Below are positions 1-17,706 of a stretch of 20,220 nt of DNA, one piece after another. Below the pieces are notes generated by a model that was not told the origin of the DNA, searched no databases, and was given only the letters and a program-made list of their open reading frames with translations. The stretch spans positions 1 to 20,220 of IMG/VR virus record IMGVR_UViG_3300030382_002811; one strand, given 5' to 3'. Each line of letters starts with the position of its first letter. Within the stretch, counting starts at the first letter, position 1. Position numbers and translations under genes: made by a program. This stretch comes from a virus.

Positions 1-95
1 CGAGTAAGCAGAGACGATACCGTATTCCCGAAACCTGCTTTCTTAATTCCTTCCGTTGAAATGCTGCTTAAAGTGGGTGGTGTCGGTGCGGCCAT
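1..95 (-). CDS. Partial CDS, probable phage structural (tail/adaptor-like) protein, N-terminus only
   Basis: An ATG at 95, preceded by GGAG with a 7-base gap, opens a frame that runs off the left edge after 31 codons. The protein begins MAAPTPPTLSSISTEGIKKA and continues with a G/T/S/L-rich stretch. From memory, a Pro/Thr start followed by TEG(L/I)KKAG is common at the N-terminus of structural proteins in phages with N4-gp56 capsids, often placed as head-tail adaptor or tail proteins. That assignment is inference. The gene overlaps the 3' end of the HNH endonuclease gene by 53 bases in another frame, so its ribosome binding site lies inside the nuclease coding region. The C-terminal part is outside the window. 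Confidence 0.6.
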   Translation of the reverse strand, partial: MAAPTPPTLSSISTEGIKKAGFGNTVSSLLT

Positions 96-618
96 AATTT
101 GTCTCCATATCTACTATGCGTTTACAGTGCGTGACAAATTCTTTGTAGGTCAAATCCATTTTCATCCAATTACAAGTTTTGCAACATGAAACCAAATTGT
201 TAAATTCGTATTCCTTGATATTTTCTACCCTGTCTATTCCTATGTTTCCTAAATTACTTATTTCACAACCACAATATTCGCATGGAATATTTGCGAATGA
301 TACGAATTGTTCAAAAGTTAGTTCAAAAGAAATACCTCTCTTCTTAGCATTTGTTTTATAGCCATAAAAAGTTCTTCGCTCTGGATTGTCTTTCCAATAT
401 CTTTTGTCATTAATGCTCTTGTCATTCTTAACCTGCTCAAAAGATTTTTTATAATCATCTCTCGACTGAATACCCTTTGAACGCCTATACACCTCTCCTC
501 TATCCTGTTTGCAATGGATACATACATAGCTATAAACTTTAAACTGTCCTTCAGACCAGTTCTCATTAAGAACCAATGGTGAGTCACAGTCCTTGCAATA
601 ATGTATAATAAATGGCAT
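43..618 (-). CDS. HNH endonuclease, free-standing, homing-type
   Basis: This 191-aa protein is a probable DNA-nicking or cutting enzyme of the HNH superfamily. The N-terminus carries a possible zinc ribbon (C8/C11 with C33/C36). The middle part has the Lys/Arg-rich stretch that often precedes phage HNH domains (around 80-100). The nuclease core follows: C113-x2-C116, then GIDRV with D129/R130, N141, C146-x2-C149, N150 and K153, matching the pattern Cxx C...DR...N..CC..CN..K. The start ATG at 618 has GAAAGG seven bases upstream. It is the last complete gene of the operon, and its 3' end overlaps the start of the next gene. Such genes are usually selfish mobile elements between late phage genes, though some assist DNA packaging. 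The nuclease call is secure; the biological role is not. Confidence 0.88.
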   Translation of the reverse strand: MPFIIHYCKDCDSPLVLNENWSEGQFKVYSYVCIHCKQDRGEVYRRSKGIQSRDDYKKSFEQVKNDKSINDKRYWKDNPERRTFYGYKTNAKKRGISFELTFEQFVSFANIPCEYCGCEISNLGNIGIDRVENIKEYEFNNLVSCCKTCNWMKMDLTYKEFVTHCKRIVDMETNYGRTDTTHFKQHFNGRN

Positions 619-2432: not shown

Positions 2433-2700
2433 CATGGACTCCCCAACATTGTTTCTTGCCGTTCTTCTCTCTCGGATAATCTCTGCATACTTTTGGTCTC
2501 TGGTTATAAATCTCACACCTGCGACCATCGAAATGCTTACATACAGTTCCTATCCGAAACTTTGCCTTAAACTCATTTCCTACCTTGACAACTTCAACTC
2601 CAAAATTACTATAAAACCTTGCCTCATCTTCTGGCAAGCAGACAGATATATTTGCACCAACGCAACACTGACCACAACCTATGCAAGCCCATTTATCCAT
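2407..2700 (-). CDS. YkgJ-type cysteine-cluster protein
   Basis: This 97-aa protein carries the Cys pattern of the YkgJ / zinc- or iron-chelating family: C6-x2-C9-x2-C12-C13 (CIGCGQCC), then C54, C62 in RRCEIYNQRP and C72 in VCRDYP. The CxIYxxRPxxCRxYP block is the signature second half of this family. Members are thought to bind a metal, and their biochemical function is poorly known. The ATG shares bases with the stop of the upstream virion-like gene (TAATG), so it is coupled to structural gene translation. Phages carry copies, but a role in virion assembly is unproven. The family call is confident; the function is not. Confidence 0.85.
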   Translation of the reverse strand: MDKWACIGCGQCCVGANISVCLPEDEARFYSNFGVEVVKVGNEFKAKFRIGTVCKHFDGRRCEIYNQRPKVCRDYPREKNGKKQCWGVHDATYKVRQ

Positions 2701-3563
2701 TAGTTGTCCACCACCATTAAGTCAAAACCTGCTGTCATATCTGTACTATTAGTGCCTGACCTTATTTGCACTTTCATAATAGCGGGGCCGACAAATATTT
2801 TAGGTATCCAAAATTGTATAGACCTTGCTGAAGTTCCAGCGCCAACAAAGCCAAAAGTATGCTTCGTAACAAATCCAGTTATCTCTTCATCTGGCCTTGT
2901 GTTTACACATAAATCACAATCAGCAACTCCAGTTGAGCCACCACCTTTATTGTAATTTCCATAGAGTCTGCCAAGGTAAGCTGTCTGTATAGAAGGAATA
3001 CCATATATAGCCATTTGGGTTTGTCCTTGCCCTGCCCTTATACGAGAAGTCACAGTTCCATCTGTGTCGGCTGTGGCTTTAATAGTTCCTACGTTTGGTG
3101 GAGTGTCACCCCATGTTATAACTTCCATTCTATGAATTATGACATAAGCATTTGTTGTTGGAACATCTGTAGTTCCATTCATTTCTATTGTTTCACTAAT
3201 TTCAGCAGTATCCCAATCTGGTAAGCCGCTTATTCTGACAGTTCTTGCTCCATCACCCAAGATAGTATCGTTGGCATCTGAGGATGCTAACTGATGTATT
3301 CTGGCTGCTGTGGGAGCTAACCATATTAATGAGTCTCCACCAGAAGCGAGGTGATGTCCACCATCCCATATATCTGCTGTTATACCATTTTGAATTTGAA
3401 TGTTTCTACCATACTTATTGACACCCATGTGACCAGAGACTTCACCAGCAGCTACAGCTATATTGAAATCTTTCGCAACAACCATTGGCATATTGCGCAG
3501 ATGTTTTACCCCATAAGGCACATTGTTTTCATCTTTGAACCAAATCTCTGCATCATTGCTCAT
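2700..3563 (-). CDS. Probable virion structural protein, beta-rich, 287 aa
   Basis: This 287-aa protein is rich in Gly, Thr, Val, Ile and Asn with few charged helices, as expected for a beta-sandwich tail, fibre or capsid-associated protein. A conserved-looking segment near residues 43-70 (GEVSGHMGVNKYGRN, then a QIQNG.TADIWDGG stretch) resembles N-termini seen in environmental phage structural proteins. The C-terminal half has regular strands of the kind ITGFVTKHTFGF and SIQFWIPKIFVGPAIMKVQI. Its start overlaps the end of the GT9 gene by 11 bases. It follows the sugar-modification island and may be one of its protein substrates: it is Ser/Thr/Asn-rich and presumably exposed. Structural role likely; exact position in the virion unknown. 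Confidence 0.65.
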   Translation of the reverse strand: MSNDAEIWFKDENNVPYGVKHLRNMPMVVAKDFNIAVAAGEVSGHMGVNKYGRNIQIQNGITADIWDGGHHLASGGDSLIWLAPTAARIHQLASSDANDTILGDGARTVRISGLPDWDTAEISETIEMNGTTDVPTTNAYVIIHRMEVITWGDTPPNVGTIKATADTDGTVTSRIRAGQGQTQMAIYGIPSIQTAYLGRLYGNYNKGGGSTGVADCDLCVNTRPDEEITGFVTKHTFGFVGAGTSARSIQFWIPKIFVGPAIMKVQIRSGTNSTDMTAGFDLMVVDN

Positions 3564-4599
3564 TTTTCCATTCCTTATAATGTCGTTCTATTTCGTTTTT
3601 AACAACTTCATATTTTAAATTAGCCATACATAATGGTGTTTTTAACTTATCATGTAATGGACAAGATTCAAGAGTATAATGCAATTGGTGGCAAGGGTAA
3701 CATGGAGTATCATATTCACTGGCGTGTAGCTCGGAACAGTTCTTCCAGTATTTAGTAAGGTTTTCTTCAGACGAATGAGAAAGCAATACAATCTTTGGCG
3801 TGTCATAGCAACCTGCTCCATTAAGTATCCCTGTTTCACTTCCTACCACCAAGTCTACATACTTCGTCATTAATAATGCTTGCCGTATCGACCATTTGTC
3901 CGACCTGCACTTTACTCTCGGATGTTCCCATTCGAGCATCACGCTTACTGCGTCACCTACTGTTATAAATACTATGTCATTATAATCTCTCAACAACCAA
4001 TCGCAAACTAATTGCGTGTACGGGTAGTTCTTGTGGAAAGAACTTCCTGCAAGCGACCACATGACAACAAATTGCTTGGCTCTTCTTGGCTTCTTAATGA
4101 ACGCTTTGGCAAGTTGGTGTTCAAGTGAGGTGAAGAAGAGTTCACCGTTCCTCCCTGTGATTTCAGGGAATCCAGCAATTGCGAACTGTTCGTCGTAATA
4201 ATTTTTATTGCATTTCTCATGTCTTACTTCATGCTCCCATCCAAATTCTTTACTTCCTTCAATCTTGAGTAGCCCACCTTCAACTGAGCCAGAAAGATTA
4301 ATGAACTTGTCGTAACCTTTAGACAGATTCTCCCAATACTCCCCAAGTTTTTCATTCGGTATTTCATCATCTTGCTGGATTAGAAATTTGTCTATGTTCG
4401 GATTGTGCCTCAGGACACTCTGCGCTCTCGGAGTCATGTTCATCGTCACATGGTAGCCCAACTGCTTTAAGTGACTCAATAAAGCTGTAAGCATAATTAC
4501 ATCTCCGAAAGCTCCGTACCTGACTACGCATACCGTTTTTCCTTCCATTGGCTTCGGTTTTTTCCATTGTTGTTGCCATATCCTGTCTGGTAAGTTCAC
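3553..4599 (-). CDS. Glycosyltransferase family 9 (heptosyltransferase-like)
   Basis: This 348-aa protein has the GT-B layout of the ADP-heptose:LPS heptosyltransferase family. The N-terminal domain carries VVRYGAFGDVIMLTALLSHL (D33 corresponds to the catalytic Asp of the GDxxxxxP-like motif). The C-terminal domain has VVGSETGILNGAGCYDTPKI (about 251-270), the usual donor-binding block, followed by a Cys cluster C300-x2-C303...C313. Family members transfer a sugar from an ADP- or other nucleotide-sugar to LPS core or related acceptors. Donor and acceptor here are unknown. Translation starts at GTG (4599), which overlaps the sulfotransferase stop (GTGA) and has AGAGG four bases upstream. It is the last gene of the island and overlaps the next virion-like gene. 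A phage-borne GT9 enzyme is unusual. Confidence 0.85.
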   Translation of the reverse strand: MNLPDRIWQQQWKKPKPMEGKTVCVVRYGAFGDVIMLTALLSHLKQLGYHVTMNMTPRAQSVLRHNPNIDKFLIQQDDEIPNEKLGEYWENLSKGYDKFINLSGSVEGGLLKIEGSKEFGWEHEVRHEKCNKNYYDEQFAIAGFPEITGRNGELFFTSLEHQLAKAFIKKPRRAKQFVVMWSLAGSSFHKNYPYTQLVCDWLLRDYNDIVFITVGDAVSVMLEWEHPRVKCRSDKWSIRQALLMTKYVDLVVGSETGILNGAGCYDTPKIVLLSHSSEENLTKYWKNCSELHASEYDTPCYPCHQLHYTLESCPLHDKLKTPLCMANLKYEVVKNEIERHYKEWKNEQ

Positions 4600-5228
4600 G
4601 CAACCTCTTTCTCATTAAACTCTCCATTCTGCACAGTGTTACTCCTGTCTGGTTTTCGAGCTATTCCTCCGACTATTGGAATATTTATTCTTTTAGAAAT
4701 ATGCCTGATTGTTTTATCAAACCGAGAACATAAATCTTCATAGCGAACATAAATAATATTATGCCCTGCCATCCGTTCCTTCCAGCTTGCCTTATGCCCG
4801 TTCCATCTCGCCAGCATTGACGGATACTGTTTATACTGGTAACGCATACATCCGCCATAAGGCTCTGCAATTTTAAGCTCCTCTATGTCTTTGCATTTAG
4901 CAGCTTCATCCCAAACAATACTATTCCAATGTTTCAGGCAACTTTTAAACATACTGTCCTCTGACCTGTAAATGTAAAATACATGAGCAAACTTCAATAC
5001 TTCCTCTATCACGGGCTGGAAGAAAGCTCCTTCGTAATGAGACTTAACAATATACTTTGGCTCTTTTATGCCTTGCAGCATATTCAATATATTACTTGGT
5101 ACGTGAGGCAGCACAGGCATATCAAGATTAAAGTACGGGAAACTTGTATACCCAAAGTTTAACGCCAGTGAGTTCATCAAGAAATGCGTACCACTGCGTT
5201 CATGTGAATTGACTATCATTAATTTCAT
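4596..5228 (-). CDS. PAPS-dependent sulfotransferase family protein
   Basis: This 210-aa protein (224 aa if read from the ATG at 5270) has the sulfotransferase order of motifs. The 5'-phosphosulfate loop is SHERSGTHFLMNSL (about 8-21). KSHYEG follows, with H64 at the position of the catalytic His. The 3'-phosphate site FYIYRSEDSMFKS has R88 and S96. YVRYEDL lies at 160-166. Near the C-terminus is an ARKPD...NGEFNEKE segment, where family members have the RKGxxGxW loop. The enzyme should move a sulfo group from PAPS to a hydroxyl or amine; the neighbours point to a sugar or glycosylated protein. The start at 5228 is preferred because AAGGAG lies about 13 bases upstream, though it is not decisive. 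The stop overlaps the GT9 start. It needs host PAPS, as no sulfate activation gene is seen. Confidence 0.82.
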   Translation of the reverse strand: MKLMIVNSHERSGTHFLMNSLALNFGYTSFPYFNLDMPVLPHVPSNILNMLQGIKEPKYIVKSHYEGAFFQPVIEEVLKFAHVFYIYRSEDSMFKSCLKHWNSIVWDEAAKCKDIEELKIAEPYGGCMRYQYKQYPSMLARWNGHKASWKERMAGHNIIYVRYEDLCSRFDKTIRHISKRINIPIVGGIARKPDRSNTVQNGEFNEKEVA

Positions 5229-5352
5229 ATTTTTTATCATGCTCCTTGCAAGCACATTCATAGGTTTCAATTAACAATTTATCAAATCTTTGTTCGATTT
5301 TTAATATAGTTAGCTGAAAATTACATTCTTTGCAAATTATCTGTAAAGTCAT
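5200..5352 (-). CDS. Small Cys-pair (zinc-ribbon-like) protein, 50 aa
   Basis: A 50-codon ORF begins at ATG 5352 with GAGGGATT directly before it and ends at TGA 5200. It encodes an N-terminal C-x2-C (CKEC, residues 7-10) and a C-terminal C-x-C (CAC, 33-35) separated by a helical segment (LKIEQRFDKLLIE), the layout of a small zinc ribbon. It fills the otherwise empty space between the dehydrogenase and the sulfotransferase and overlaps the start of the latter. Its final codons contain the AAGGAG that may serve the sulfotransferase, which suggests coupled translation. Function unknown. Confidence 0.6.
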   Translation of the reverse strand: MTLQIICKECNFQLTILKIEQRFDKLLIETYECACKEHDKKYEINDSQFT

Positions 5353-5386
5353 AATCCCTCAATAATAAGGCTGGACTGTTGCTCAT

Positions 5387-6208
5387 TCAAGGTGTCGTAC
5401 TGCCAGCCATTGTTAATCTCTCTACTAATTTAATTGACTTTGCTGCTTCATGTTTACTAACTCCCTTGCCGTTCTTAAAGTCCTCGTAGACTTTTAAATG
5501 AAGATTCTCAAATCGTTTAGCAAGGTTGTATGGTTTCCCATCTACGACTAAAGTTCTTATTTGTGTATCCATTGGTTGATGTAGATAGAACTCCCAAAAC
5601 ACTGATGCTTTTTGAAATTCAATCGTTCCTATGGAATGATGACCTTCACTCAATACAATATTATTTGAGAGAACATTACCAAACAACCACTGCATCAAAT
5701 CGAAATAATGAATCCCAATATTAAATAAAAGACCGCCCGATTTTTTTTCTTGTCCTTTCCACCCTTCCCAATAGAATTTTCCACGATTTATGAGCAGTTG
5801 CAACCTAACCTTATGTCCTGAAGTTATTTTTTTCTTTAGCTCAATCATCTCAGGATTGTGCCGAAGCTGCAAGACAGTCCTCGTTCCATTCATCATTCCA
5901 ATATATTTACTATCTATTGTCAATGGTTTTTCGCATAAGACTTTCTTCCCACGCTTCTCACATTCTACAATCATTGGAGGATGCAAGTGATTAGGAGTGC
6001 AGATAGCAACATTATCAACTAACTTAAACTCTGGAACATTCACCATCGTAAGCCAGTTGTTAGTACAAAAAACATTGCCAGTTATTTTACTAAACTTACT
6101 CAAGTCATTATCGCAAGCCATAATAAGCTCATCACCAATGTCCTCGATAGCATCCATGTGGCGTTGCGCTATAAAACCTAAACCTATTATTCCCCACCTT
6201 TCTTTCAT
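5387..6208 (-). CDS. Gfo/Idh/MocA oxidoreductase, WlbA/WbpB-like sugar dehydrogenase
   Basis: This 273-aa protein has an N-terminal NAD-binding Rossmann fold (WGIIGLGFIAQRHMDAI, residues 5-21) and a Gfo/Idh/MocA catalytic domain with the hallmark CEKPL (K94). Further along are LQLRHNPEM, INRGKFYWEGWKG and SGGLLFNIGIHYFDLMQWLF (N163, H167). The last three blocks match, from memory, UDP-N-acetyl-2-amino-2-deoxyglucuronate dehydrogenase (WlbA/WbpB). That enzyme oxidises C3 of UDP-GlcNAcA en route to 2,3-diacetamido sugars of O-antigens. It is some 40 residues shorter than the usual 310-odd, the loss lying in the C-terminal half. The ATG overlaps the upstream GT4 stop (ATGA) and AAGGGAG precedes it. 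No aminotransferase or acetyltransferase partner is seen, so partners must be host-encoded or the substrate differs. Confidence 0.85.
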   Translation of the reverse strand: MKERWGIIGLGFIAQRHMDAIEDIGDELIMACDNDLSKFSKITGNVFCTNNWLTMVNVPEFKLVDNVAICTPNHLHPPMIVECEKRGKKVLCEKPLTIDSKYIGMMNGTRTVLQLRHNPEMIELKKKITSGHKVRLQLLINRGKFYWEGWKGQEKKSGGLLFNIGIHYFDLMQWLFGNVLSNNIVLSEGHHSIGTIEFQKASVFWEFYLHQPMDTQIRTLVVDGKPYNLAKRFENLHLKVYEDFKNGKGVSKHEAAKSIKLVERLTMAGSTTP

Positions 6209-7164
6209 TTATTCTCCCTTAATTTGTCAGCTTGGCAATCAGGACAATTATCAATCTCTTCTTTAGATGTTTTATCATGCACTATGGGTTTTTTCGTCAA
6301 ACCTTCAGTTGCTAATGCGTAAACCCTCTCATAGTTGCTCCATCCAAAATACCTCTTAACTCTGTTTCTATACATTATTGCATCATAATCAGAAGATGGT
6401 AATAGCATTTGTACAGCTTCCTCTACTGTATCAAATACACAGTCGCCAAACTGTTCTCTTGAGCCAGCCCAATTATGCACCACTGGCTTAATCCCTTTCG
6501 CCATAGCTTCTATTACGCTGTTTGGACTTCCTTCACTTATAGCTGTTGACAGAAGGTAGTTTTTATCTTTTAACCAGAAATTCATGTTGCCTATTTCACC
6601 TTCAAAATAAAAACGCTTCTTCATTGACCTGCAAATATTGTTGAGATAGTCCACAGTAGCACCGCATTGGATTGCTCCAGCTAAATGCAAAGAATAATCA
6701 TCTGGTAACTTTTGCATTATCTGAATGGCAAGGGGAAGGTTTTTCTTTTGGTTTATATAGCCAACTACTGCCACTTTTTTTCCATGAGTCTTTTCTTGAA
6801 AAGTCCAATCATTTACATCAACACCATTATAAATAACTGTCGGCTTAACGCCAGTGCGCTCCTCAAACCCTTTAGCAAGATAGTCATTAACCATAATTAC
6901 TTTATCTACTTTTTCCCAATTAAGAGATTCTATTACTTGAGAATAGTATTCATACCTTCTTACGAAAACAATATATCGTGAGTTCTTTGGACTTCCATTG
7001 ATAAATCTAAAGGTATCCTCATTGCACCAGTGAAAAATCATTAAATCGTCACAATCTTTTATGGGGGCTTTGGTTATTGATACTTCCCAATCGTTGTCCT
7101 CAAATATCTTTGTATATCCCTTTAACCACTGCATCTTGAAAGGCGACACCATTTGCACTCTCAT
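6205..7164 (-). CDS. Glycosyltransferase family 4 (GT-B fold)
   Basis: This 319-aa protein is a compact GT4 enzyme. The N-terminal domain is short. The linker region has TVIYNGVDVNDW (about 109-120). The C-terminal Rossmann domain contains VVGYINQKKNLPLAIQIM (donor-site region) and the EX7E motif SEGSPNSVIEAMAKG with E211 and E219. Such retaining enzymes transfer a sugar from a nucleotide-sugar to a glycan or other acceptor; donor and acceptor are not readable here. A C-terminal CPDC pair (residues 308-311) is an odd addition. The ATG overlaps the stop of the preceding 56-aa gene (ATGA), with GGGGGAAAAT upstream. The absence of membrane helices suggests a cytoplasmic enzyme. Confidence 0.87.
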   Translation of the reverse strand: MRVQMVSPFKMQWLKGYTKIFEDNDWEVSITKAPIKDCDDLMIFHWCNEDTFRFINGSPKNSRYIVFVRRYEYYSQVIESLNWEKVDKVIMVNDYLAKGFEERTGVKPTVIYNGVDVNDWTFQEKTHGKKVAVVGYINQKKNLPLAIQIMQKLPDDYSLHLAGAIQCGATVDYLNNICRSMKKRFYFEGEIGNMNFWLKDKNYLLSTAISEGSPNSVIEAMAKGIKPVVHNWAGSREQFGDCVFDTVEEAVQMLLPSSDYDAIMYRNRVKRYFGWSNYERVYALATEGLTKKPIVHDKTSKEEIDNCPDCQADKLRENK

Positions 7165-7331
7165 ATTTTCCCCCTACTCATCACTATCCATTGATAGGAT
7201 AATAGTTTTCTCAATAACTCGCTACGTTTAAAAAAGTTATCATTATAAGACAACTTATTATTCTCAACTTTAATCCTAACAGCTACTTGGTCATCCCAAT
7301 ACTTTTCTTCCGCTAATGTTCTATTTATCAT
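7161..7331 (-). CDS. 56-aa protein resembling a truncated SAM-methyltransferase N-terminus
   Basis: The reading frame extends to 7409, but AAGGAGG lies three bases before the ATG at 7331, and the longer form would be buried in the upstream gene. The protein begins MINRTLAEEKYWDD, has a linker, then FFKRSELLRKLLSYQW. The EKYWDDQ start followed by a KR-x2-LL helix and a W resembles the region just before motif I in class I methyltransferases of polysaccharide loci. Here the frame stops after a few more residues, before any VLEIGCG-type motif, and the next gene starts in the same bases (ATGA). Without the AdoMet-binding loop it cannot be a working methyltransferase. It could be a remnant kept for coupling or an unrelated small protein. 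The family guess is weak; the ORF itself is well supported. Confidence 0.5.
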   Translation of the reverse strand: MINRTLAEEKYWDDQVAVRIKVENNKLSYNDNFFKRSELLRKLLSYQWIVMSRGKI

Positions 7332-8451
7332 TATCCTCCTTAGTAAATAAACGCTCAAAATCATCATCTGATATAGGTGTAGACAAATCTGTATAACTGT
7401 TTCGTACACTCGTAAGTGAACAATACAAATCTTTTAATGGCTGTAGATTATTGTCCATAGTAAACTGCTGGCGTTTCTTCAATAAAACTTTTCTTATTTT
7501 TGTATGTTCTTCCCATCTTTCAAATAGTTCTTCAAGATTTTTCACTTCTATGCCTATGCCATGTTCCCGTACAAACTTACCGCATTCTTTTGCATTTATA
7601 GCGACAATGGGAACTCCTGCTGCCACATAATCAAAGAGCTTATTTGGCATGGCGACTTCCCATTCCCTTGTATAGTTAAGATTCCCAACCAAACCCCAAT
7701 CATGTCTGCCAATGTTTTTCAATAATGTATCATATACATAAGGTGGATGCACGAATGCTATATCGTTGTAGGCTTTCATAAATTCTTTATCTTCGTTATT
7801 CCTGCCAGCATACAGATGAAATTTGACACCTATATCATGCGCTTTTTGTGCAAAGTCTTTATAGTCACAATACCTAAATCCAAAACTTGCTTTAGATGTT
7901 ACATCCATTTGAATCTTTCCCTCGTAGACTAAGCCGCCCATCCAATCGGCAGCGTTGTATCTATATAATCTTCTCGGCAGGTAAGATGGTAAAATGATGT
8001 GAGGTTGGGTTAGTTTGAACTCGTTAATTATTAAATCAGCGAATGGTCGGGAGGGAAATACTAAGGCATCTGCAAGTTGAAAGTTATTTCTCTCTTCTAT
8101 GCTTACACGAACAACCTCTGGATTCTTTTCTTTTTCTTCTGGCGTTACTCTGGCGAGAAAAGAATCATGGACATCCAATATTACAGGAACGTCACACATC
8201 TCTTTTATCAATGTGACAAAGAATGATGGTTCATTATGACAATGAAACACATCGGTGTTTGGAGCGTGGAGTTTTATAAAAGAAGCTAAATTCCCTAAGT
8301 CGAACCAATGGCCGAATGTTGAATAGGCTTCTGAAAATGAGGCGTGTCTGTGGGCAATTAAGTGGACTTTGTGCTGGCCTCCCTCGATGAGAGGCAACCC
8401 CATCTTGTGTACTCTCACACAAGAATGGTTTGCTACCATAACTACTTTCAT
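7321..8451 (-). CDS. Glycosyltransferase, GT4-like (GT-B fold)
   Basis: This 376-aa protein begins MKVVMVANHSCVRVHKMGL, a typical first strand and acceptor loop of GT-B enzymes. FHCHNEPSFFVTLIKEM and VILDVHDSF follow (about 90-120), as in GT4 family N-domains. The C-domain contains WEVAMPNKLFDYVAAGVPIV, which matches the NKxxDYxAxGxPxV donor-binding signature, followed by a ...GIGIEVKNLEELFERW tail. It probably transfers a sugar from a nucleotide donor. No membrane helix is seen. It is the first gene of the modification island, 12 bases downstream of the T-tract of a hairpin terminator, with AAAAAGGAACA before its ATG. Its expression therefore probably depends on readthrough from the capsid genes. 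The substrate is not decidable. Confidence 0.82.
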   Translation of the reverse strand: MKVVMVANHSCVRVHKMGLPLIEGGQHKVHLIAHRHASFSEAYSTFGHWFDLGNLASFIKLHAPNTDVFHCHNEPSFFVTLIKEMCDVPVILDVHDSFLARVTPEEKEKNPEVVRVSIEERNNFQLADALVFPSRPFADLIINEFKLTQPHIILPSYLPRRLYRYNAADWMGGLVYEGKIQMDVTSKASFGFRYCDYKDFAQKAHDIGVKFHLYAGRNNEDKEFMKAYNDIAFVHPPYVYDTLLKNIGRHDWGLVGNLNYTREWEVAMPNKLFDYVAAGVPIVAINAKECGKFVREHGIGIEVKNLEELFERWEEHTKIRKVLLKKRQQFTMDNNLQPLKDLYCSLTSVRNSYTDLSTPISDDDFERLFTKEDNDK

Positions 8452-8462
8452 TGTTCCTTTTT

Positions 8463-8492
8463 AAAAAGTTGGGGGAGTATTACCCCTCCCCC
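8463..8492 (-). terminator. Rho-independent terminator between capsid genes and sugar island
   Basis: On the minus strand a perfect 7-bp stem GGGGGAG/CTCCCCC (8486..8492 with 8471..8477) closes an 8-base loop and is followed by AAC and a run of five T (8463..8467). It lies just after the 160-aa structural gene and immediately before the first glycosyltransferase gene. No promoter is visible between it and that gene. Confidence 0.75.
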
Positions 8493-8506
8493 ATGAGGGC
8501 TTACTA

Positions 8507-8989
8507 CTAAGTATTTACATCCCAATTTGAATCAAGTGCAGGAACGTAATCGACAAAGAACGCAACAGTACCAGTTGTGGTGCTGGTATTCTGTGCCGTA
8601 CCTTTATCTGTTTCGGGAGTACCTGTCGTAATACTAATGTACTCTCCAGCCTTACACTGAGCAACTGACATAGTTATATCAGAAGCGAAAGAGAAGAGTG
8701 CAGATGAAAAACAGTTAAAGGAAGCTGCTAATGAAGCAGAAGCTCCTCTTGTTTTCACCCGACAATCAATCTTGTCAACTCCAGAACCATTCAATGTTGC
8801 CATTGTGAAAGAGCCAGCTTTCAAAAGACGAATCGGCCCTCTCGGATACCACCTTGCAAGCTGAGACTGAGTTGTAGCATCAGTCGTACCGAAGGTGTAT
8901 CCAGCGGCAGCGTCTCCACCGAGCTTCACGGTGAGACCAAACCACTTTCTTGTTATTCCGCCATATACCGCAGCATCATAAGTTGCCAT
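8507..8989 (-). CDS. Probable virion protein, 160 aa, directly downstream of capsid gene
   Basis: This 160-aa protein is Ala/Thr/Ser/Gly-rich and beta-prone, with an N-terminal block ATYDAAVYGGITRKWFGLTV and a C-terminal strand GTVAFFVDYVPALDSNW. It follows the major capsid gene by 23 bases, with AGGAGAACAAA before its ATG, and precedes a terminator, so it is the end of the head gene group. Position, size and composition suit a capsid decoration or head-completion protein, but I cannot tie it to a named family. It contains several Thr/Ser-rich stretches (for example around residues 135-145) that could be glycan acceptors if the following island modifies the virion. Confidence 0.65.
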   Translation of the reverse strand: MATYDAAVYGGITRKWFGLTVKLGGDAAAGYTFGTTDATTQSQLARWYPRGPIRLLKAGSFTMATLNGSGVDKIDCRVKTRGASASLAASFNCFSSALFSFASDITMSVAQCKAGEYISITTGTPETDKGTAQNTSTTTGTVAFFVDYVPALDSNWDVNT

Positions 8990-9012: not shown

Positions 9013-9975
9013 TCACGCACCAGAATCCCACTTGATAATTCTTGAGTCTCCTTCAGTATCCCACTCAAGCGCCCATCCGCCCAAGAAGTACCATGCGATA
9101 CCTTTAGACCTTCCGTAATCAGTAACAACCTTCATGCGGATTTCCTCTGGCACAACAATGGCTTCTCTAACGACACCTTTACCGAACATATAGGCATCAA
9201 GAGACTGCGCCTTAGTCCACGATTTAGCCGTTGCAGTTCGAGCAGCAGCGTCAACCGTAAACCGTGAAGCATAGAAGTCTTTAACAAACCTAACACCGTG
9301 TAGTCTCCCCACTTCACCGTTATATATCTTATGGACACCTGTTTCCGTATACTGATTAACTCCTTCCATTGCTCCTTCGAGTGACTCAATCGCTTCCAGA
9401 GAAGCAATACATACATAAGAATCACCTTCGTAAGCAGGTACGTTCCGTTTCTCTAACTCAAGTCTCATCTTCCTAACGTGACGGGAATTAAGAATTGATG
9501 TGTTAGTAACAGTAGCAGTACCGTTAGTAGTAAGAGTATGGGCAGTAGTAGAAGTACCCACGAAACGTAACTTAGTTTCATTGTACCGTCTCTCAACCTT
9601 ACCATCCAACACCTTAGCTGCATCATCGAGCAATCCGCCTCTCACAATTTCCTTTACATCAAATTCTGACAGGGCTTCTGACTTGAAAGAAAACGGAATG
9701 GAGTTACCTACTTCATTTACTGTAAGCGTACCCCATGTCAAAGCCTGAGTGGTTTCGTGCATGGTGTTGGTTTCGGTTAAGTTTCCACCGATGGTCGCAA
9801 CATTAGCAACTTTCAGCCAGTTCACTGACTGACCTCTCTGCTTTCCGAATGCTTCCTTGACATCAACGAACTGTCTGAACTTGAATAAAGGTTGGGCTGA
9901 ACGCTGGAAAAACTGATTAAGTTTGTTGTTTGTCAACACACCTGAGTGGTTGACCCATAGCATCTCGTTAGCCAT
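9013..9975 (-). CDS. Major capsid protein, N4-gp56 family
   Basis: This 320-aa protein forms the icosahedral head shell. It matches, from memory, the N4-gp56 family of HK97-fold major capsid proteins. The signs are FxQRSAQPLFKFRQFVD near the N-terminus, a strand-rich middle with LTVNEVGNSIPFSFKSEALS, then GLLDDAAKVLDGKVERRYNE, SRHVRKMRLELEKRNVPAYE, YVCIASLEAIESLEG and GEVGRLHGVRFVKD. The order of conserved blocks and the length (about 300-400 in the family) agree. TTGGAGG lies 12 bases before the ATG. It sits directly after the scaffold-like gene, the usual order. The family is common in N4-like and other podoviruses. Confidence 0.92.
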   Translation of the reverse strand: MANEMLWVNHSGVLTNNKLNQFFQRSAQPLFKFRQFVDVKEAFGKQRGQSVNWLKVANVATIGGNLTETNTMHETTQALTWGTLTVNEVGNSIPFSFKSEALSEFDVKEIVRGGLLDDAAKVLDGKVERRYNETKLRFVGTSTTAHTLTTNGTATVTNTSILNSRHVRKMRLELEKRNVPAYEGDSYVCIASLEAIESLEGAMEGVNQYTETGVHKIYNGEVGRLHGVRFVKDFYASRFTVDAAARTATAKSWTKAQSLDAYMFGKGVVREAIVVPEEIRMKVVTDYGRSKGIAWYFLGGWALEWDTEGDSRIIKWDSGA

Positions 9976-17633: not shown

Positions 17634-17706
17634 ACCTTTGAGTTGGAATCGAACCAATAACAAATAGATTTACCGTCTATTGCTCTACCATTTGAGCTAT
17701 CATATT
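17634..17706 (-). pseudogene. Degenerate tRNA-like element, anticodon GTA (Tyr)
   Basis: The minus strand folds into most of a tRNA. The D-arm GCTC/GAGC has an AAATGGTA loop. The anticodon stem ATAGA/TCTAT has the loop CGGTAAA (anticodon GTA), and a 5-base variable loop follows. The T-arm has TTGG/CCAA around TTCGATT. Against a working tRNA: only 4 of 7 acceptor pairs form, the first T-stem pair is A-C, position 33 is G instead of the invariant U, and no CCA follows. Bacterial tRNA-Tyr also has a long variable arm, which is missing. I read it as a tRNA remnant or mimic. Confidence 0.55.

Follow-up and report, generated by a model that had tools for sequence, protein, structure and literature searches.

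A glycan-enzyme cassette behind the capsid gene of uncultured podovirus-like phages: a small post-capsid protein and its companion glycosyltransferase as a putative exchangeable unit

The window described here is the 20,220-base virus record IMGVR_UViG_3300030382_002811 of IMG/VR, in which a cassette of glycan enzyme genes lies on the minus strand at positions 3553-8451. On this strand the gene order is terminase, portal, a scaffold-like gene, the major capsid protein, a small protein of 160 amino acids (termed D1) and then the cassette, the first enzyme of which is a glycosyltransferase (termed GTa). What becomes evident from a comparison with related loci is that D1 and GTa keep company with one another, and the reading that we favour as the probable one is that the cassette serves to glycosylate the head of the phage itself. 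In other words, GTa would glycosylate D1, the remaining enzymes would elaborate and sulfate the product, and D1 and GTa would be swapped between phages as a unit. The principal features, in the order in which they are transcribed, are the following.

9013-9975, minus strand: major capsid protein, family phrog_1357 (E 1.7e-22), directly upstream of the cassette
8507-8989, minus strand: D1 protein, 160 amino acids, adjoining the capsid gene in about 30 loci; beta-sandwich model
7321-8451, minus strand: GTa, GT4-type glycosyltransferase paired with D1 (Pfam GT4 models, E about 2e-6)
6205-7164, minus strand: GTb, GT4-type glycosyltransferase (Glycos_transf_1 E 3e-10; phrog_2170 glycosyltransferase E 4e-11)
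5387-6208, minus strand: WbpB/WlbA-type sugar-nucleotide 3-dehydrogenase (GFO_IDH_MocA E 5e-16; WbpB 3o9z E 4.7e-33)
4596-5228, minus strand: sulfotransferase of the 3'-phosphoadenosine 5'-phosphosulfate (PAPS) type, by motifs and marginal family matches (start in the list of open reading frames, TTG 5270)
3553-4599, minus strand: GT9, heptosyltransferase-like, a backbone gene of the lineage (lineage profile matches to 3tov and 1psw)

An earlier note on this DNA had named these five enzymes, all of which are found where it placed them and on the minus strand, as part of a seven-gene set; the other two open reading frames of that set proved to be a methyltransferase remnant and an unconserved frame of 50 amino acids, both considered below. 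The enzyme genes abut or overlap by a few bases, except near these two small frames. For the capsid protein, proposed there as N4-gp56, the family is phrog_1357, with no confident N4-gp56 match.

IMG/VR was scanned with the capsid protein, GT9, the sulfotransferase, GTa and D1, giving about 120 contigs on which profile searches were run; the related loci compared with the window carry L-numbers (L002, L003 and so on). In nearly all of the relatives the cassette block has the capsid gene on one side and the head-tail adaptor on the other, the common layout being capsid gene, one small protein gene, glycan genes, GT9 and an SU10-type adaptor. The small post-capsid proteins can be sorted into four families or more, namely D1 (that of the window), D2, D3 and D4. 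A distant relationship is possible between D1 and D3 (hhalign probability 83%) and between D3 and D4 (75%). An enzyme of its own adjoins each of D1, D3 and D4, and D2 has none. D1 is followed by GTa in all 31 of its loci in the capsid tree, and GTa stands beside the capsid gene in none of the 28 loci with another family; behind D3 comes a second enzyme resembling GT9, which adjoins it in most loci and follows two intervening open reading frames in L082; D4 is followed by a protein that joins an MptE-like domain (PF01973) to a methyltransferase; and D2 is followed by the sulfotransferase, or only by small open reading frames and GT9. PF01973 is the domain of the Maf flagellin glycosyltransferases. 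Maf enzymes modify serine and threonine residues of flagellin (PMC11339370), and the connection to the phage proteins beside D4 is only a lead.

The pairing is not a matter of one lineage having expanded. In the tree of capsid proteins, which has 59 rows, no fewer than nine changes of the D1 label are required on branches with good support, and across nine independent pairs GTa goes with D1 in nine of nine (sign test, p 0.004). Pairwise distances give the same picture, in that those of D1 and GTa correlate with r 0.87 over 25 loci, and with a partial coefficient of 0.81 given the capsid protein, whereas those of D1 and the adjacent capsid protein correlate with r 0.54, falling to 0.15 given GTa. 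These correlations place the exchange boundary between the capsid gene and D1, such that D1 travels with GTa. By contrast GT9, though several kilobases distal, follows the capsid protein with r 0.91. The same arrangement is seen at short range. The window capsid protein is 93-97% identical in more than 15 relatives, and among capsids at least 93% identical to it D1, D2 and D4 alternate along with the accompanying enzymes, while the sulfotransferase and GT9 are retained behind all three.

It could be argued from the strength of the latter correlation that the glycan is carried instead by the capsid protein, or by another virion protein such as the adaptor or the tail, with GT9 as the protein-modifying enzyme and the coupling of D1 to GTa mostly a consequence of linkage. 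GT9 is also the only enzyme to be retained with every D type, and its four cysteines, invariant in 22 homologues, resemble the iron finger of TibC (Cys 339, 342, 358 and 370; PMC4358343). This alternative is, in our estimation, distinctly unlikely, since the agreement of GT9 with the capsid protein may reflect no more than the membership of both in the backbone, and since D1 and GTa were inseparable in nine switches and their correlation persists when GT9 or GTb is controlled for.

Turning to the partners themselves, D1 has a serine plus threonine content of 23%, and its AlphaFold2 model (30 sequences; predicted local distance difference test score, pLDDT, 80) is a beta-sandwich. In VIA it gives Z 7.7 to the cement protein of Pam1 and 7.2 to those of KHP40 and Carin1, its best matches (Z 7-8.5) being virus coat domains, carbohydrate-binding modules and phage cement proteins intermixed. 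Foldseek against the PDB returned no E-value below 0.001, and the viral matches there are generic beta-sandwiches, including C1q/collagen-type proteins. The fold thus fits a cement protein without proving one, since the scores are tied with those of unrelated domains. On the strength of this model and its place beside the capsid gene, D1 is a probable capsid cement or decoration protein, and we propose it as the glycan acceptor. Cement proteins of this kind in GP4 and Pam1 are trimers on the capsid surface, GP4 having 540 copies beside 540 capsid proteins (PMC9698820).

The model of GTa (pLDDT 90) has a GT-B/GT4 fold, with Z 27 to BshA and 24.8 to Gtf3, and it is by this fold that its GT4 membership is assigned, that of GTb being assigned by its Pfam match; GTb also carries the EGSPNSVIE (EX7E) motif. 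The dehydrogenase aligns with 3o9z over nearly its full length, including the Rossmann motif, the lysine of EKP and the histidine of GIH (here GIHYFDL). In the sulfotransferase, which matches Sulfotransfer_1 at 1.8e-4, just below the Pfam cut-off, and PDB entry 5x2b at 8e-4 by profile, SHERSGTHFL, KSH, R102 and S110 are invariant in six sequences, and the 5'-phosphosulfate loop, the arginine and serine for the 3'-phosphate and the catalytic KxH are all recognised. Its start is probably ATG 5228 and not TTG 5270, as judged from the relatives, which begin at MKL. GT9 matches weakly alone; its lineage profile reaches 3tov (1.2e-6) and heptosyltransferase II 1psw (2.9e-4), 14 of 22 members of the lineage match heptosyltransferase I, and the GT-B domain begins near residue 22.

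Ratios of nonsynonymous to synonymous substitution (dN/dS) are 0.04-0.06 for GTa, 0.07-0.10 for GTb and 0.09-0.10 for the dehydrogenase, and lie within 0.03-0.23 for all the enzyme genes where they could be estimated, the methyltransferase included where it is kept. This is purifying selection, and it follows that the cassette is not a chance set. Nor is it a host O-antigen cluster joined to the contig by assembly error, a possibility that is ruled out by the same layout in dozens of independent contigs and by the lack of close GTa homologues in bacterial genomes; the best match of GTa in 84,980 bacterial and archaeal species genomes is 26% identical, which marks the cassette as viral.

The gene content between the fixed flanks varies strongly. 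Among the variable genes recognised in the relatives are methyltransferases, GT2 and GT4 glycosyltransferases, UDP-glucose/GDP-mannose dehydrogenase, PIG-L deacetylase, hexapeptide acetyltransferase, a radical SAM/SPASM protein and a second type of sulfotransferase. The earlier note had proposed a search for co-occurrence beside the capsid gene, and the core layout does recur there, the exact enzyme set being confined to few loci: the dehydrogenase, sulfotransferase, GTa, GTb and GT9 occur together only in L002, L003 and L004 by profile searches of the relatives, and in L095 the dehydrogenase and sulfotransferase are present without a confident match to GTb. Such variability, together with homing insertions nearby, is what one would expect if the block were a passive cargo island whose genes share no function, gathered at a recombination hotspot that lies between the capsid and adaptor genes. 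We regard that explanation as highly improbable, given purifying selection on all the genes, the strict pairing and the fact that the recognisable genes are almost all of glycan chemistry.

A different target for the same chemistry would be the host envelope, either lipopolysaccharide (LPS) or capsule, remodelled for superinfection exclusion or receptor change by enzymes that sit in a late operon by chance or for reasons of timing. GT9 resembles the LPS heptosyltransferases, WbpB comes from O-antigen pathways, and the glycosyltransferases of pelagimyophages have been so interpreted by their authors (PMC7029224). Remodelling of the host does not, however, predict that the first glycosyltransferase should switch with a small post-capsid protein, nor the near-universal position between capsid and adaptor; the set has no flippase or polymerase, and enzymes expressed late have scarcely any time in which to protect the cell. 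We therefore think it unlikely, and the preference for virion decoration already expressed in the earlier note finds support in the nine joint switches of D1 and GTa, their co-divergence and the capsid-adaptor position. The argument for late expression which that note drew from an overlap of GT9 with a virion gene is weak. The overlap, of 11 bases, is real; the gene in question (2700-3563) belongs to phrog_8198, of no assigned function, and is missing from the nearest relatives, so that a better case is made by the collinearity of the cassette with the head genes.

Modification of phage DNA bases, which is a known role of phage glycosyltransferases (Pyle 2024, as cited in PMC12619734), is hardly credible here. 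No base-modifying or nucleotide-hydroxymethylating gene is recognised in the window, and the cassette lies in the head operon and not among replication genes. We know of no precedent for sulfation in DNA hypermodification.

Returning to decoration of the head, the sequence of events would be as follows. D1 would sit on the capsid surface as a cement protein, and GTa, as its dedicated glycosyltransferase, would add the first sugar or sugars to it; GTb would extend the glycan, the WbpB-like dehydrogenase would make an unusual uronic or keto sugar nucleotide, and GT9 would add a further, heptose-like sugar. The sulfotransferase would transfer sulfate from host PAPS, probably onto the GT9-dependent part, as suggested by the overlap of the two genes and by their joint retention in the window's group. 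In relatives a methyltransferase would also methylate the glycan, a step that the window phage would lack. Donors would come from the host, namely UDP-sugars, PAPS, S-adenosylmethionine (SAM) and possibly ADP-heptose. Exchange of the matched D1-GTa unit between phages, flanked by a capsid gene and a GT9 gene that stay in place, would allow the surface to vary while the shell stays constant.

Several points weigh against this reading. D1 and GTa adjoin, and part of their coupling could be physical linkage, a partial alternative that explains joint transfer but explains less easily why D1 and GTa were never split while capsid and D1 were, both gaps being short. Many of the D1 loci were fetched with D1 or GTa queries, which is a source of ascertainment bias. 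The D2 loci have GT9, with the sulfotransferase also in one group, and no dedicated first enzyme. The cement-fold matches of D1 lie within Z 1 of unrelated carbohydrate-binding modules, and profiles of D1 and of the capsid protein gave no meaningful E-value to phage head structures in the PDB. The sulfotransferase match is weak in general libraries, and the dehydrogenase stands here apart from its usual aminotransferase and acetyltransferase partners, none of which was found in the 20-kb window (by reading of open reading frames, the family scans covering the cassette genes). These missing partners make its product uncertain, though the host could supply them. Lastly, whereas the genes and their order, the pairing and co-divergence, the purifying selection and the loss of the methyltransferase are shown, the acceptor, the sequence of reactions, the structure of the glycan, its sulfation and its purpose, like the cement identity of D1, are what we infer from them.

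On the matter of ascertainment, a scan with the capsid protein alone listed 73 loci, a few of them contigs already in the earlier set, of which the 48 with more than 3.5 kb downstream were scored. D1 is found with GTa in five of five (three already known, leaving only two new D1 loci) and GTa in none of the other 43, and GT9 is present in 45 of the 48, ahead of the tail genes and 0.9-6 kb behind the capsid gene. It is conceivable, at somewhat less than even chances, that matched pairs extend throughout the lineage, each cement family with its own initiating protein glycosyltransferase, swapped between a fixed capsid gene and a fixed GT9 to give serotype-like, sometimes sulfated coats on a constant shell.

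Expression of the two partners may be set by an element that lies between them.

8470-8493, minus strand: G+C-rich hairpin followed by a T run, between D1 and GTa; terminator-like match with 8 pairs

From its sequence the element is a probable terminator or attenuator. A stable hairpin stands at the same place in 28 of 28 D1 loci (minimum free energy below -18 kcal/mol), with a sequence that differs among loci; in the few cases where D1 abuts GTa the fold is in coding sequence. With mononucleotide shuffles, z falls below -2 in 22 of the 28 as against 2 in-gene controls, and with dinucleotide shuffles the window hairpin reaches only z -1.0. No excess of promoters was seen. Attenuation at this point would give abundant structural protein and less enzyme from one late transcript.

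The two small frames of the cassette are of another character.

7161-7331, minus strand: remnant of a SAM methyltransferase, 56 amino acids, with about 45 residues of the N-terminus fused in frame to 12 of the C-terminus
5200-5352, minus strand: 50-amino-acid CxxC open reading frame, by sequence reading; not conserved, and with no room for it in L003

The former reads MINRTLAEEKYWDDQ...LLRKLLSYQWIVMSRGKI, and intact homologues of 210 amino acids (Methyltransf_25/11) are present in L002, L003 and L020. Relative to L003 some 154 codons are gone, in frame, with the junction inside an imperfect short repeat; the deletion occurred either in the genome or in assembly, and is in frame either way. The loss is most readily understood as a way in which the finished glycan varies. 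The 50-amino-acid frame is probably an insertion.

Beyond GT9 lies the gene that overlaps it.

2700-3563, minus strand: gene of 287 amino acids overlapping GT9 by 11 bases; phrog_8198, outside the conserved unit

Its product is 28-30% identical to cyanophage open reading frames, some of them annotated as tail fibre. Next to it, at 2407-2700, a small CxxCxxCC protein (PF03692) is found downstream of the cassette, and in the same place in several relatives. As regards GT9, HNH-type open reading frames lie between it and the sulfotransferase in L011 (3483-3989), L012, L013, L016 and L017, and are 43% identical to an HNH frame of the window (43-618). In these five relatives GT9 has a short insertion at the RYGAFGD codons and its N-terminus looks altered, and L002 has an insertion of roughly 700 bases (6523-7242) at about the same site; the nucleotide-binding loop of GT9 may be a homing target. 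A 43.5-kb contig, IMGVR_UViG_3300030103_003364 (L014 and L027), has GT9 at both ends, with alleles 86% and 78% identical to that of the window, which are perhaps strain variants at a circular junction. Tandem duplications are seen of GTa in L116 (8802-11068) and of D1 in L098 (6481-7338). L019 (2734-6978) holds in one island a radical SAM/SPASM protein, the other sulfotransferase type (Sulfotransfer_1 E 5e-13) and an MptE-like plus methyltransferase protein. Group I introns (Rfam RF00028) split the major capsid gene of the distant relatives L113 (8710-9007), L121 (6443-6700) and L106 (790-1075). A tRNA-like match in the window (17639-17702, minus strand; Rfam tRNA, 38.9 bits) was not reported by ARAGORN.

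Amongst cultured phages (50,697 records, DNA and protein searches) there is no match for the sulfotransferase, GTa, GT9 or D1. By capsid protein the nearest relatives in culture are Vibrio phage 219E41.1 and Escherichia phage PTXU04, in which the interval from capsid to adaptor holds small genes and no annotated glycan genes. In the open-access literature no paper was found that brings together phage sulfotransferase, glycosyltransferase, methyltransferase and capsid, nor a description of this layout, of the post-capsid pairing or of a sulfotransferase in such a set. If the reading is true, a modular glycan coat on the capsid would be standard throughout a large, uncultured lineage of podovirus-like phages (one viral collection has at least 588 relatives by capsid protein), phage sulfotransferases would gain a testable role, and new protein glycosyltransferases might be among the enzymes. 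GTa and D1 are proposed as a named enzyme-acceptor pair that can be tested, and environmental phages may in this way change the charge and adhesion of their surface while the assembly of the shell is left as it is.

Comparison with known systems places the cassette amongst several familiar elements. Like the jelly-roll/Ig-like cement proteins of Pam1, KHP30/40 and GP4, D1 is, as modelled, a small beta-sandwich encoded beside the capsid gene, the Z values to Pam1 and KHP40 given above being tied with those of unrelated domains; no sequence match links it to them. Glycosylation of those cement proteins is, to our knowledge, not known. The dehydrogenase shares with the WlbA/WbpB UDP-sugar 3-dehydrogenases of O-antigen pathways the EKP and GIH motifs and a match over nearly the whole protein, and differs in being phage-encoded, about 40 amino acids shorter and separated from the partner enzymes. 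GT9 has the GT9-like GT-B fold class and C-terminal four-cysteine motif of the TibC/AAH autotransporter heptosyltransferases, but a different cysteine spacing and no N-terminal beta-barrel; assignment as a TibC-type (BAHT) protein heptosyltransferase was rejected for want of the barrel, and TibC was not recovered by profile search. Genes of the sulfotransferase family occur in marine phages, for example in OM43 phage genomes, where the authors call their function unclear (PMC10580990); in contrast, the sulfotransferase of the window has a fixed place within a glycan cassette next to the capsid genes, and this place suggests a function. The nearest parallel in purpose is found in the mycobacteriophages Che8, Corndog and Myrna, in which glycans on capsid and tail tube shield virions from antibodies (Freeman 2023, pmid 37329881, as related in PMC12363180 and PMC12619734). 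As there, a phage-encoded glycosyltransferase is linked to virion genes in the window. Glycosyltransferases are what is reported from those phages, where the chemistry is proven, and the chemistry of the window is proposed from its genes; what sets the window apart is a multi-step set, with dehydrogenase and sulfotransferase, and methyltransferase in relatives, that lies at the capsid locus. Virion glycosylation itself is already known, and the new point is the pairing of a post-capsid family with its first glycosyltransferase.

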